64,000 nucleotides of DNA from Candidatus Microbacterium phytovorans. Lineage in GTDB: Bacteria > Actinomycetota > Actinomycetes > Actinomycetales > Microbacteriaceae. Location: contig CP119321.1 in the NCBI GenBank assembly GCA_029202445.1, forward strand, positions 1,054,001-1,118,000, read 5' to 3'. This document shows positions 53,043 to 55,949 of this stretch, one piece after another; positions within the stretch are counted from its first letter, which is position 1, and each line of letters opens with the position of its first letter. Below the pieces are notes generated by a model that did not search any database, was not told the origin of the DNA, and saw only the letters and a program-made list of their open reading frames with translations. Both the position numbers and the translations under genes were made by a program.

Positions 53043-53780
53043 TCAGGAACTCTCGAGCTGGCCTCGCACGATCGAATCGCCGGAGTGGGTGTGGTCGCCG
53101 TCGTCGGGTTCCTGCGAGATGTCCACGACACTGAATCGCGCCGTGTCGACATCGGCGGGGATGGTGAACGACCCGGTCGTGCCATCGAGGATGCCGAGAC
53201 TCACGAGATCGGACCCGTCGGGCGTGAGCAGCCACACTTCGCGGTGACCGGTGTCGGCGAGGTCCGCGTCGAGGTCGACGATGACGCGCTCCACTCCGTC
53301 CGATTCGCGCTCGAGCGTCGCACTGCCGCGTGCACCGGGATGATCGGGGAATGCGTCGAGGGTCGCCGTCGCGATGTCGATCGGTCGCGGAGTGATGAGC
53401 GTGACGACGAGCACGACCACGGCCGCCGTCGCCACGAGTCCCCCCGCCAACACCGCGAGACGACGGGACAGGCGTGCGCTCCGCGGCGCGCGGTGGGCGC
53501 CGTCGCGACCTTCGCTGCGATCGAGGCGGGTGTCGGTGTCGGTCGGGTCGGCGTCGGTCGGGTCGGCGGCGATCTCACGGGCCACCGCGTCCCACACGTG
53601 GGGGGCAGGAGCAGCCAGCCCGGCGCGGTGCGCACCGCGGGCGACCGTCACGGTCTGCTCGAGAGCGGCCAGTTCGTCGGCGCACGTCGCGCACTGCGAC
53701 AGGTGTGCAGCGGCGTCGGCGTTGAGAGCGAGGTCGCCGAGGGCGGCCATCGCCAGGTCGTCGGGGTCAATATGCGACAT
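53043..53780 (-). CDS. RskA-like zinc anti-sigma factor
   Basis: 245 residues. N-terminal HxxxCxxC motif (His26, Cys30, Cys33 in AAHLSQCATCADEL) typical of zinc-associated anti-sigma domains; a transmembrane helix at about 108-132 (LAVLAGGLVATAAVVVLVV); and an extracellular RskA domain (LERESDGVERVIVDL, REVWLLTPDGSDLVSLGILD). Its start lies inside the 3' end of the sigma gene (14-bp overlap), so stoichiometric production is expected. It should hold the sigma factor at the membrane. Confidence 0.93.
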   Translation of the reverse strand: MSHIDPDDLAMAALGDLALNADAAAHLSQCATCADELAALEQTVTVARGAHRAGLAAPAPHVWDAVAREIAADPTDADPTDTDTRLDRSEGRDGAHRAPRSARLSRRLAVLAGGLVATAAVVVLVVTLITPRPIDIATATLDAFPDHPGARGSATLERESDGVERVIVDLDADLADTGHREVWLLTPDGSDLVSLGILDGTTGSFTIPADVDTARFSVVDISQEPDDGDHTHSGDSIVRGQLESS

Positions 53781-54351
53781 GGGTGCCCTCCCATCTCTTC
53801 CGCAGTCTTTGGAGGCTTCTTCTCACGTGGCTCTTCACGGTTCCCAGCGGCATGTCCAGCCGCTCCGCGATCTGGGCGTGGGTGAGGTCATCATAGAAGG
53901 CGAGTCTCACGACCGCCTGGGCGTCGGGTTCGAGTTGCTCGATCTCGTGCGCCACCATGATGGCATCCGTCGGATCGGGAGCGGGATCGATCTCGGGATC
54001 GGCATGCGCCTTGAGCGCGTCGAGCACACGGTGATCGCGCGCCCGTCGACGGTGCGCGTCGGCGATCCGCCGGCGGGCGATCGCGACGAGCCACGTCGGG
54101 AGCGACGCCTTGGCGGGGTCGAAGGTACTGCGGGCGCGCCACGCGGACACGAACGTCCATTGGGTGACGTCCTCCGCTTCGGAGACGTCGCCCAGCGAAC
54201 GGAGCGCGATCGTGTAAACGAGACGCGACCACCGGTCGTACACCTGCTTCAGCACCCGCTCGTCCGCCGTCGCGAACACGAACCCGAGGTGCTGCTCCTC
54301 TGCGTCGTCGATGACGCTCTCCTCCCGGGTCTCTGTGTATACGAGGGTCAT
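53767..54351 (-). CDS. ECF sigma factor (SigK-like)
   Basis: 194 residues: region 2 (LKQVYDRWSRLVYTIALRSL, then EAEDVTQWTFVSAW) and region 4 (LAFYDDLTHAQIAERLDMPL, then KSHVRRSLQRLRKRW). ATG 54351 is preferred because GAGGGG precedes it at good spacing; GTG 54360, overlapping the sortase stop, is the alternative. Paired with the RskA-like anti-sigma downstream; resembles SigK/SigL modules of actinobacteria. Confidence 0.92.
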   Translation of the reverse strand: MTLVYTETREESVIDDAEEQHLGFVFATADERVLKQVYDRWSRLVYTIALRSLGDVSEAEDVTQWTFVSAWRARSTFDPAKASLPTWLVAIARRRIADAHRRRARDHRVLDALKAHADPEIDPAPDPTDAIMVAHEIEQLEPDAQAVVRLAFYDDLTHAQIAERLDMPLGTVKSHVRRSLQRLRKRWEGTHVAY

Positions 54352-54356
54352 CGGTC

Positions 54357-55010
54357 TCACCCCTCGGGGCGGGCGACCGCGACCACGTTGTCACTGTACG
54401 TCCTCGTGGCCTCATCGAACGAGCCGCCGCATGTGATGATCACGAGGGAGGACTCACCGGAGCGCGAGAAGAGGTCTTCGACGGGCAGTTCCGCTCGCGG
54501 GATGTAGCGGACCGACACGACGGTGAACTCTGTGGTCTCGCCGTCCTCATCGCGCACCTGTACCTTCGCGCCCTTATCGAGGTCGCGGAGCTGTGCCAGC
54601 GGACCGATACCGAGGACCCGCGAGTCCACGTGGGCGGCGATCACAGCCGAGCCCTCATCGGCGCCGGGGGTCGGTCCGTAGCGGTACCAGCCCGCAACGG
54701 CCGGGTCCTCAGGGATCTCCATGGACCCGTCGTCCTGCACTCCCACCGGCTTCACCCGGAGGTCCGCATCGATAGCCGGGATACGGAGCTCGACCGGCCG
54801 GGCCGACGCGTCGATGGGTGCGAGCGTCGCCTGCGCGACCGGCACGTCGACGGCGGGTGTCGGCCGCTCCGTCGCCACTGCCTGGGGGACGCCCGCTCCC
54901 CCGACCGCCTGCTCCCCCACCGTGGGGGCGGCGGGGGAGCAGGCGGTGAGCAGCGACACGGTCACGACGACGCCGGCAGCGATCGCCCCACTCGTGCCGC
55001 GGCGGTTCAT
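54357..55010 (-). CDS. Class F sortase
   Basis: 217 residues. N-terminal lipoprotein-like signal (VVVTVSLLTAC), linker, then the sortase domain with catalytic His127 (AAHVDS), Cys194 (VIITCGGSFDEATR) and Arg203. The TCGG context is typical of class F sortases, which attach proteins to the wall. ATG 55010 overlaps the DUF4397 stop by 4 bp. No LPXTG substrate is visible in the window. Confidence 0.92.
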   Translation of the reverse strand: MNRRGTSGAIAAGVVVTVSLLTACSPAAPTVGEQAVGGAGVPQAVATERPTPAVDVPVAQATLAPIDASARPVELRIPAIDADLRVKPVGVQDDGSMEIPEDPAVAGWYRYGPTPGADEGSAVIAAHVDSRVLGIGPLAQLRDLDKGAKVQVRDEDGETTEFTVVSVRYIPRAELPVEDLFSRSGESSLVIITCGGSFDEATRTYSDNVVAVARPEG

Positions 55011-55834
55011 CGGGAGCGGTTCACCGCGGTGCGGCGCACGGCGACGATGACGAGGGCGGCGAGCAGCAGGCCCGCACCACCGAGGACGACCGGCATCCAC
55101 ACGTCTCCGCGGTTCTCGGCGGCGAGGCCGGCCGAACCGGTGTTCACCCCGTCGGGGTTCGAGTGGAGACCCTCGATCGTCTGTGCGGCGATGGCGAGGT
55201 TGCCGTCCTCGGCGCTGCCCCACGCGTACACGATCGTCAGGGTGCCGTCGGCGATCTCCACGTCTGTGGGTCCGAGCACGGGGTCGGTGGTCCCGGCCAG
55301 GGCGACCGACGCCGACACGGTGCCGGCCGGCAGGTCGAGCGTCGCCTCGTCGGGGTTCACGAGACCCTCGATCACGGGGCTGTCACCGGCGAGCACGTCG
55401 ACGGCGGGAGCGGCCGCCACGTGACGGACCGTCAAGCGGCCTTCGCCGGCGGCGGTCTCGGAGGTGTCGTTCGTGAACAGCTTGGCCGTGGGCTCGCCGT
55501 CTTCGGTGAGGTGAGCGACCGCCGTGTAGGACATGCCGCCCTCGAGCGTCAGGGTTATCGGTCCGAGCACCGGGTCGGAGTCGTCGGCGGCGTCCGTCGC
55601 GGTGAGGGCCACGTCGTAGTCCCCCGCGGGCAGCTCCAGCGGTCCGGCGAGGTCGCCCGGCTGGAAGTCGTCGAGCGTGAGGTCACCGTTGACGTAGACA
55701 TCCACGGGGGTGTCGGGGATGCCGTGCAGCACCGACAGAGTGGCGTCGTCCGAAGTTGCCGCGGTAGCGGGAGCAGCGACGGTCACCGCCGCGAGCCCTG
55801 CGACGGCGAGGCCGACGAGAATCCTGGATCGCAT
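55007..55834 (-). CDS. Exported DUF4397 protein with C-terminal membrane anchor
   Basis: 275 residues: signal peptide (LVGLAVAGLAAVTVAAPATA), two DUF4397 repeats (LSVLHGIPDTPVDVYVNG; RLTVRHVAAAPAVDVLAGD), a C-terminal membrane helix at about 247-267 and a basic tail. The region before the helix (LAAENRGDVWMP) has no LPXTG motif but is the layout of a wall-sorting signal. ATG 55834 follows GAAGGAGAAGGAC. Likely the substrate or partner of the sortase it is coupled to. Confidence 0.88.
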   Translation of the reverse strand: MRSRILVGLAVAGLAAVTVAAPATAATSDDATLSVLHGIPDTPVDVYVNGDLTLDDFQPGDLAGPLELPAGDYDVALTATDAADDSDPVLGPITLTLEGGMSYTAVAHLTEDGEPTAKLFTNDTSETAAGEGRLTVRHVAAAPAVDVLAGDSPVIEGLVNPDEATLDLPAGTVSASVALAGTTDPVLGPTDVEIADGTLTIVYAWGSAEDGNLAIAAQTIEGLHSNPDGVNTGSAGLAAENRGDVWMPVVLGGAGLLLAALVIVAVRRTAVNRSR

Positions 55835-55878
55835 GTCCTTCTCCTTCCGTGCGACGCGCCGATCGCGTCGTCATGGAT

Positions 55879-55894
55879 GTATTCGTGCGAATAC
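55879..55894. promoter_or_regulatory. Perfect palindrome upstream of the sortase cassette
   Basis: GTATTCGTGCGAATAC, two 7-bp arms around TG, 45-60 bp before the DUF4397 start and alone between prfB and the cassette. A GCATCC on the minus strand just upstream resembles a SigK-type -35, hinting at autoregulation. Binding protein unknown. Confidence 0.5.
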
Positions 55895-55949
55895 TCGGAG
55901 CTGGATGCAGCGGATCGAAGAAAATCTTCAGCGCATCGAGGAGAAAGCG

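Follow-up and report, generated by a model that had tools for sequence, protein, structure and literature searches.

The four adjoining genes described here, which encode a DUF4397 surface protein, a class F-like sortase, an ECF sigma factor and an RskA-type anti-sigma factor, probably constitute an autoregulated operon dedicated to a single surface protein: RskA would hold the sigma factor, the DUF4397 protein would be the substrate of the sortase, and a fasciclin would be co-regulated with them. The DNA analysed (the window) is the 64-kb stretch at positions 1054001-1118000 of a complete genome of 3.03 Mb. Along the minus strand the order is prfB, DUF4397, sortase, ECF sigma, RskA-like anti-sigma, ftsE, ftsX and smpB. 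The features, in window coordinates, are:

55880..55909, minus strand: putative ECF (SigK-type) promoter TGCATCC-N17-CGAATA, -35 at 55909-55903 and -10 at 55885-55880
55879..55894, no strand assigned: inverted repeat GTATTCG-TG-CGAATAC (7-2-7), overlapping the -10
55007..55834, minus strand: DUF4397 surface protein gene, 275 aa (Pfam PF14344, 7e-32)
55127..55165, minus strand: predicted sorting motif, residues 224-236, HSNPDGVNTGSAG, from an alignment of 81 proteins
55022..55075, minus strand: C-terminal membrane helix, residues 254-271, from the AlphaFold2 model
54357..55010, minus strand: class F-type sortase gene, 217 aa (Pfam PF04203, 6e-17; NF033748, 2.7e-39)
54939..54950, minus strand: lipobox predicted at the N-terminal end of the sortase, L21-T22-A23-C24
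53767..54360, minus strand: ECF sigma factor gene, SigK-like (Pfam Sigma70 r2/r4; 4nqw SigK, 3e-18)
53043..53780, minus strand: RskA-type membrane anti-sigma gene (Pfam RskA_C, PF10099, 1e-11)
53682..53705, minus strand: Hx3Cx2C zinc-type motif of the anti-sigma, residues 26-33, in 73 of 75 orthologues

As the sequence-only reading had it, the four cassette genes overlap or nearly touch: all lie on the minus strand, the successive overlaps between open reading frames are 4, 4 and 14 nt, and Pfam agrees with the domain assignments. The DUF4397 alignment was scanned against 84,980 species genomes and returned 80 loci, hosted by Microbacterium, Cryobacterium, Agromyces, Cellulomonas, Demequina, Isoptericola, Georgenia, Nesterenkonia, Kocuria and others. 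Three of these end just after the DUF4397 gene, and 74 of the other 77 have all four genes in the same order and on the same strand, across many families of the Micrococcales. The four-gene unit is thus kept across many soil actinobacteria and is no local oddity, and the earlier proposals that surface display and its regulator form one module, and that the four genes would be found together in other genomes, both hold. Microbacterium sp. T2.11-28 has the closest named relative of the DUF4397 protein (89%), which makes Microbacterium very probably the genus of the window's genome. When 58 relatives were examined, 12 of the 35 same-genus genomes had a DUF4397 orthologue, in every case with an adjoining sortase 45% or more identical to that of the window; two of the 12 (G011 and G016) have the DUF4397-sortase pair with no neighbouring sigma gene.

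In a tree of the concatenated DUF4397, sortase and sigma proteins, all nine prfB-ftsE insertions fall in one clade (support 0.995) and a second Microbacterium clade has the module placed after smpB; on this tree the prfB-ftsE placement is a single relocation within one Microbacterium clade. Among 30 same-genus prfB loci, the module lies beside prfB in 4 and ftsE follows directly in about 12. The boundary is variable, because about 14 of the 30 hold other DNA there. The claim that the module breaks a conserved cell-division gene order therefore stands in so far as prfB is parted from ftsE and fails in that ftsE-ftsX-smpB is intact and the boundary varies in relatives. Inserts between prfB and ftsE in the genus include DUF2510-like and HNH/13E12-like genes (both judged by eye) and hydrolase genes, mostly on the opposite strand.

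The element conserved ahead of the cassette is a putative ECF promoter, 45 nt upstream of the DUF4397 ATG in the window. It resembles CCATCC-N16/17-CGAATA, the SigK promoter consensus, and its 11/12 match to the SigK-type consensus was attained in 2 of 1000 shuffles, the control being a mononucleotide one that keeps base and not dinucleotide composition. Exact TGCATCC with a GAA-like -10 is present in 70 of the 80 loci (spacer N17 in 60, N18 in 10), 40-77 nt before the start codon; most of the 10 loci in which exact TGCATCC is absent show related forms, e.g. TGCAACC with a GTAGT-like -10. Upstream of DUF4397 in five Micrococcaceae loci, that of Nesterenkonia sp. Act20 among them, TGCAAC with a GTAGT-like -10 replaces TGCATCC/GAA, which suggests that sigma and promoter changed together in these loci. 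In a genome-wide regulon scan by pattern matching only, the strict promoter pattern has 2 sites in the 3.03 Mb genome (0 for the reversed-pattern control) and, over 12 genomes, 1-5 sites each with one control match in total. Several strict matches with no gene at the proper spacing were taken as chance.

Other genes sharing the sigma promoter, as the sequence-only reading had envisaged, are a fasciclin gene and a divergent alcohol dehydrogenase gene. Of the two strict sites in the genome, the second separates this alcohol dehydrogenase (PF08240) from the secreted fasciclin (PF02469), whose gene is preceded by a TGCATCC-N17-CGTACA of its own on the strand opposite to the strict site. This divergent Zn-alcohol dehydrogenase/fasciclin pair, each gene with a TGCATCC-N17 promoter of SigK type, occupies genome positions 2046917-2048718; the alcohol dehydrogenase promoter site is present also in relative G058. 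All seven fasciclin orthologues examined from Microbacterium genomes, the window's included, carry TGCATCC-N17-(C/G)GAA(T/C)A or CGTACA 53-60 nt before the ATG. Such orthologues are found in 5 of the 12 same-genus genomes with the module versus 0 of the 23 without it (hypergeometric 0.0024, computed by hand and ignoring kinship). G011 and G016 each have a single close orthologue of the sigma, which together with its RskA adjoins the fasciclin gene instead, with promoters before both. This swap of partner by the sigma pair speaks most strongly for one sigma acting on both units, and the module sigma probably controls both the DUF4397 operon and the fasciclin gene.

Judged by its anti-sigma partner, the module sigma would be of the ECF19 type. 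It has sigma regions 2 and 4 and is adjoined by a class I anti-sigma with an extracytoplasmic RskA_C domain and one hydrophobic segment (seen by eye), an arrangement shared with ECF19/SigK factors that pair with RskA. The N-terminus of the anti-sigma, MSHIDPDDLAMAALGDLALNADAAAHL, resembles by eye the helix 1 and 2 consensus HLDPDQLALLA / GEPLDADERAHL of the membrane-bound AS19-2 class I anti-sigmas of ECF19 (PMC7406223), and its Hx3Cx2C motif sets it apart from M. tuberculosis RskA (PMC7406223). The redox cysteines C133 and C183 of M. tuberculosis SigK have no counterpart in the window's sigma, which contains no cysteine at all, as do 54 of 74 orthologues. A separate SigK-type locus at genome positions 1561332-1565491 comprises genes for a sigma, an RskA, a DipZ-like protein and a fasciclin-like lipoprotein (the last two identified by eye), its sigma being 31% identical to that of the module. 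Because this canonical-looking locus exists elsewhere in the genome, the module sigma/anti-sigma pair probably parallels SigK in diverged form rather than being SigK itself.

The AlphaFold2 model of the DUF4397 protein (pLDDT 81.7) comprises a signal peptide, two beta-sandwiches (residues 30-121 and 131-221), a disordered linker and the C-terminal helix. Its best fold match is the PepT1/2 extracellular domain pair (5a9h, E 6e-7), taken to mean no more than that the two beta-sandwiches are similarly arranged, and the PDB returned no significant sequence relatives of it. A search of the tail for LPXTG or a variant of it found none, so the earlier description of a membrane tail lacking LPXTG was correct. 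Alignment of homologues revealed instead the shared motif anticipated before the helix, with the consensus H-S-x-P-x-G-[VI]-[PNQD]-[AST]-G-x-x-G: P227 and V/I230 are found in all 81 proteins, A/S/T232 in 79 and G233 in 78. Residues 229-233 have pLDDT below 50, the lowest in the mature extracellular part of the model, and such high conservation within a floppy linker is the pattern that would be expected of a recognition tag. The motif lies some 15-20 residues before the helix, farther than in typical LPXTG signals, and the basic tail starts with Arg267-Arg268 in the last turn of the helix (R267 in 73/80, R268 in 60/78).

The layout of motif, helix and basic tail with a class F sortase adjoining is that of the GVDTG sorting domain catalogued in NCBIfam (NF058571), in which G-[VI]-x-T-G-x-[AG]-G precedes the helix; the module motif differs in having P/N/Q/D at position 3 and A/T/S at position 4. 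Next to other class F sortases lie proteins of different build (CHRD domain or a distant DUF4397) whose C-termini read GGVDTGAGG, GGIHTGGGG or similar; 5 of the 7 scanned match NF058571, 4 of them above the cut-off. Among module proteins the matches are 10 of 44 and weak (best 0.0018); the window's DUF4397 had no NF058571 match in hmmscan, its C-terminus scoring 17.3 bits where the cut-off is 29 bits. The suggestion of a new sorting signal is therefore upheld as regards a conserved motif that is not LPXTG, and tempered by the kinship of this motif to one already catalogued. In other Microbacterium genomes, CHRD proteins with a GVDTG tail adjoin class F sortases, often with an ECF sigma nearby that is divergent in several cases; these loci would represent a second kind of sortase-plus-sigma cassette.

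The window's sortase is class F-like and no certified class F member, scoring 134.3 bits (E 2.7e-39) against the NF033748 model, below the curated cut-off of 166. Its AlphaFold2 model (pLDDT 86.6) has the sortase fold, with VIA-align Z 14-17 against solved SrtA/C/E, and no significant sequence relatives were found in the PDB. In common with class F sortases (NF033748; Actinoplanes SrtF1-4) it has a beta-barrel, His and Cys and a TCGG motif, the catalytic His127 being present in 77/77 and Cys194 in 76/76 orthologues. It is unlike them in its non-LPXTG tag, its operon-linked ECF sigma, the lipobox present in most orthologues and the residue at the SrtA Arg197 position, which in the HMMER sequence alignment is Asn208 in 75 of 76. 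No arginine is invariant across the orthologues; R110 or R183 may stand in for the canonical one. Among 76 orthologues, some of whose start codons may be misplaced, 60 have a lipobox with a hydrophobic region, against none of the composition-shuffled controls, so that most module sortases are predicted lipoproteins; a lipobox is seen also in some sortases of the CHRD loci.

The sequence itself shows the genes and how they are linked, as well as the motif, the promoter and the copy of that promoter shared by fasciclin; from these we infer the remaining parts of the mechanism, namely the signal, RskA proteolysis, sorting by the module sortase, the cleavage site and the acceptor. The RskA-like membrane protein would keep the ECF sigma inactive until an envelope signal released it, probably via RskA proteolysis as in M. 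tuberculosis. The freed sigma would then transcribe its own operon from TGCATCC-N17-CGAATA, yielding the sortase, lipid-anchored in most species, together with its DUF4397 partner. Cleavage of the DUF4397 precursor by the sortase would fall within G-V-N-T|G, before the C-terminal helix, and the enzyme would join the product to a cell-envelope acceptor. From near-identical promoters at other places in the genome, the same sigma would drive the secreted fasciclin and might drive the divergent alcohol dehydrogenase too. Against this scheme stand the distance between motif and helix, the lack of the canonical arginine in the sortase, the sub-threshold NF058571 score of the window's tail, the 10 loci with no exact TGCATCC and the absence of a phenotype when the Actinoplanes class F sortases were deleted together (PMC13251363). 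An extension of this scheme to a closed circuit, in which a lipid-anchored sortase without the canonical arginine serves one substrate and fasciclin reaches the surface alongside the DUF4397 coat as its partner, we regard as doubtful; in it, sorting would feed back on sigma because RskA would sense the DUF4397 layer or the unsorted precursor.

The sorting step has a rival in which the motif serves structure or folding, the DUF4397 protein stays in the membrane and the sortase acts on other proteins of LPXTG type, much as the sequence-only reading had allowed. The fairly long linker after the motif would suit this, as would the LPXTG-like proteins encoded near other sortases in the genome. Yet the genome has three other sortases, two of which adjoin those proteins with LPXTG-like tails (identified by eye), the motif is nearly invariant where model confidence is lowest, and it is common to CHRD proteins of a different fold beside other class F sortases. 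A second substrate was sought in the genome with the NF058571 and module-tail profiles: the module-tail profile found DUF4397 at 5e-20, and the other matches were helix-only noise starting after the motif. The operon's own DUF4397 protein is thus the only visible substrate in the genome, and because no other protein there carries the motif, the sortase and DUF4397 look like a dedicated enzyme-substrate pair. We consider the structural reading of the motif improbable.

On the regulatory side, the sigma/anti-sigma pair could be an ordinary envelope-stress regulator of wide regulon, with the DUF4397-sortase genes one of many targets. ECF sigmas can accept variant promoters, and the published proteome of the module-bearing Nesterenkonia sp. 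Act20 shows a drop in RskA (a SigK-type anti-sigma) under UV-B (PMC8965627). That drop is not assignable to the module pair because Act20 carries three RskA_C proteins, and UV induction of the module was dropped from consideration for the same reason. Together with the handful of strict promoter sites per genome against a single control match, this leaves a wide regulon unlikely, though less so than the structural reading of the motif. A far fainter prospect is that the palindrome, implied by the earlier note to matter, is an operator for an unlinked repressor. The perfect 7-2-7 repeat does lie directly upstream of the cassette as claimed, but it is not conserved: any 7-bp inverted repeat occurs in only 13 of the 80 orthologous upstream regions, differing in place and sequence, and arms of 7-9 bp are frequent (43 inverted repeats in 3.1 kb around the cassette). 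The hope of finding the same palindrome at other genes came to nothing, with one other site in the window within 3 mismatches, at chance level. Since its right half is the -10, the palindrome is best taken as an incidental mirror of that element, the conserved element being the ECF promoter, and the operator was discarded for its non-conservation.

An autoregulated, dedicated surface-protein operon of the kind proposed here recalls the M. tuberculosis system of mpt70/mpt83, whose regulator SigK is kept in check by RskA, itself cleaved by Rip1 (PMC7509140). Both have a SigK-like ECF sigma co-encoded with an RskA_C membrane anti-sigma and a secreted fasciclin in the regulon; what the module has in addition is a dedicated sortase with its predicted DUF4397 substrate. 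P. acnes SrtF reportedly recognises LPXTG. No physiological role is known for class F sortases, and their joint deletion in Actinoplanes gave no phenotype (PMC13251363). The main text of the ECF19 paper makes no mention of sortase or fasciclin (PMC7406223). The components are of known kinds, and searches of the open-licence literature that paired class F sortase with DUF4397 or ECF19 with fasciclin, or looked for GVDTG, turned up no account of the combination. The module gives a class F-like sortase one predicted substrate, a cleavage motif, a promoter and a regulator, making its function directly testable. It points to sortases that are predicted lipoproteins and lack the usual arginine, and it would link the fasciclin regulon known from M. 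tuberculosis SigK to sortase-dependent display in a large actinobacterial group.
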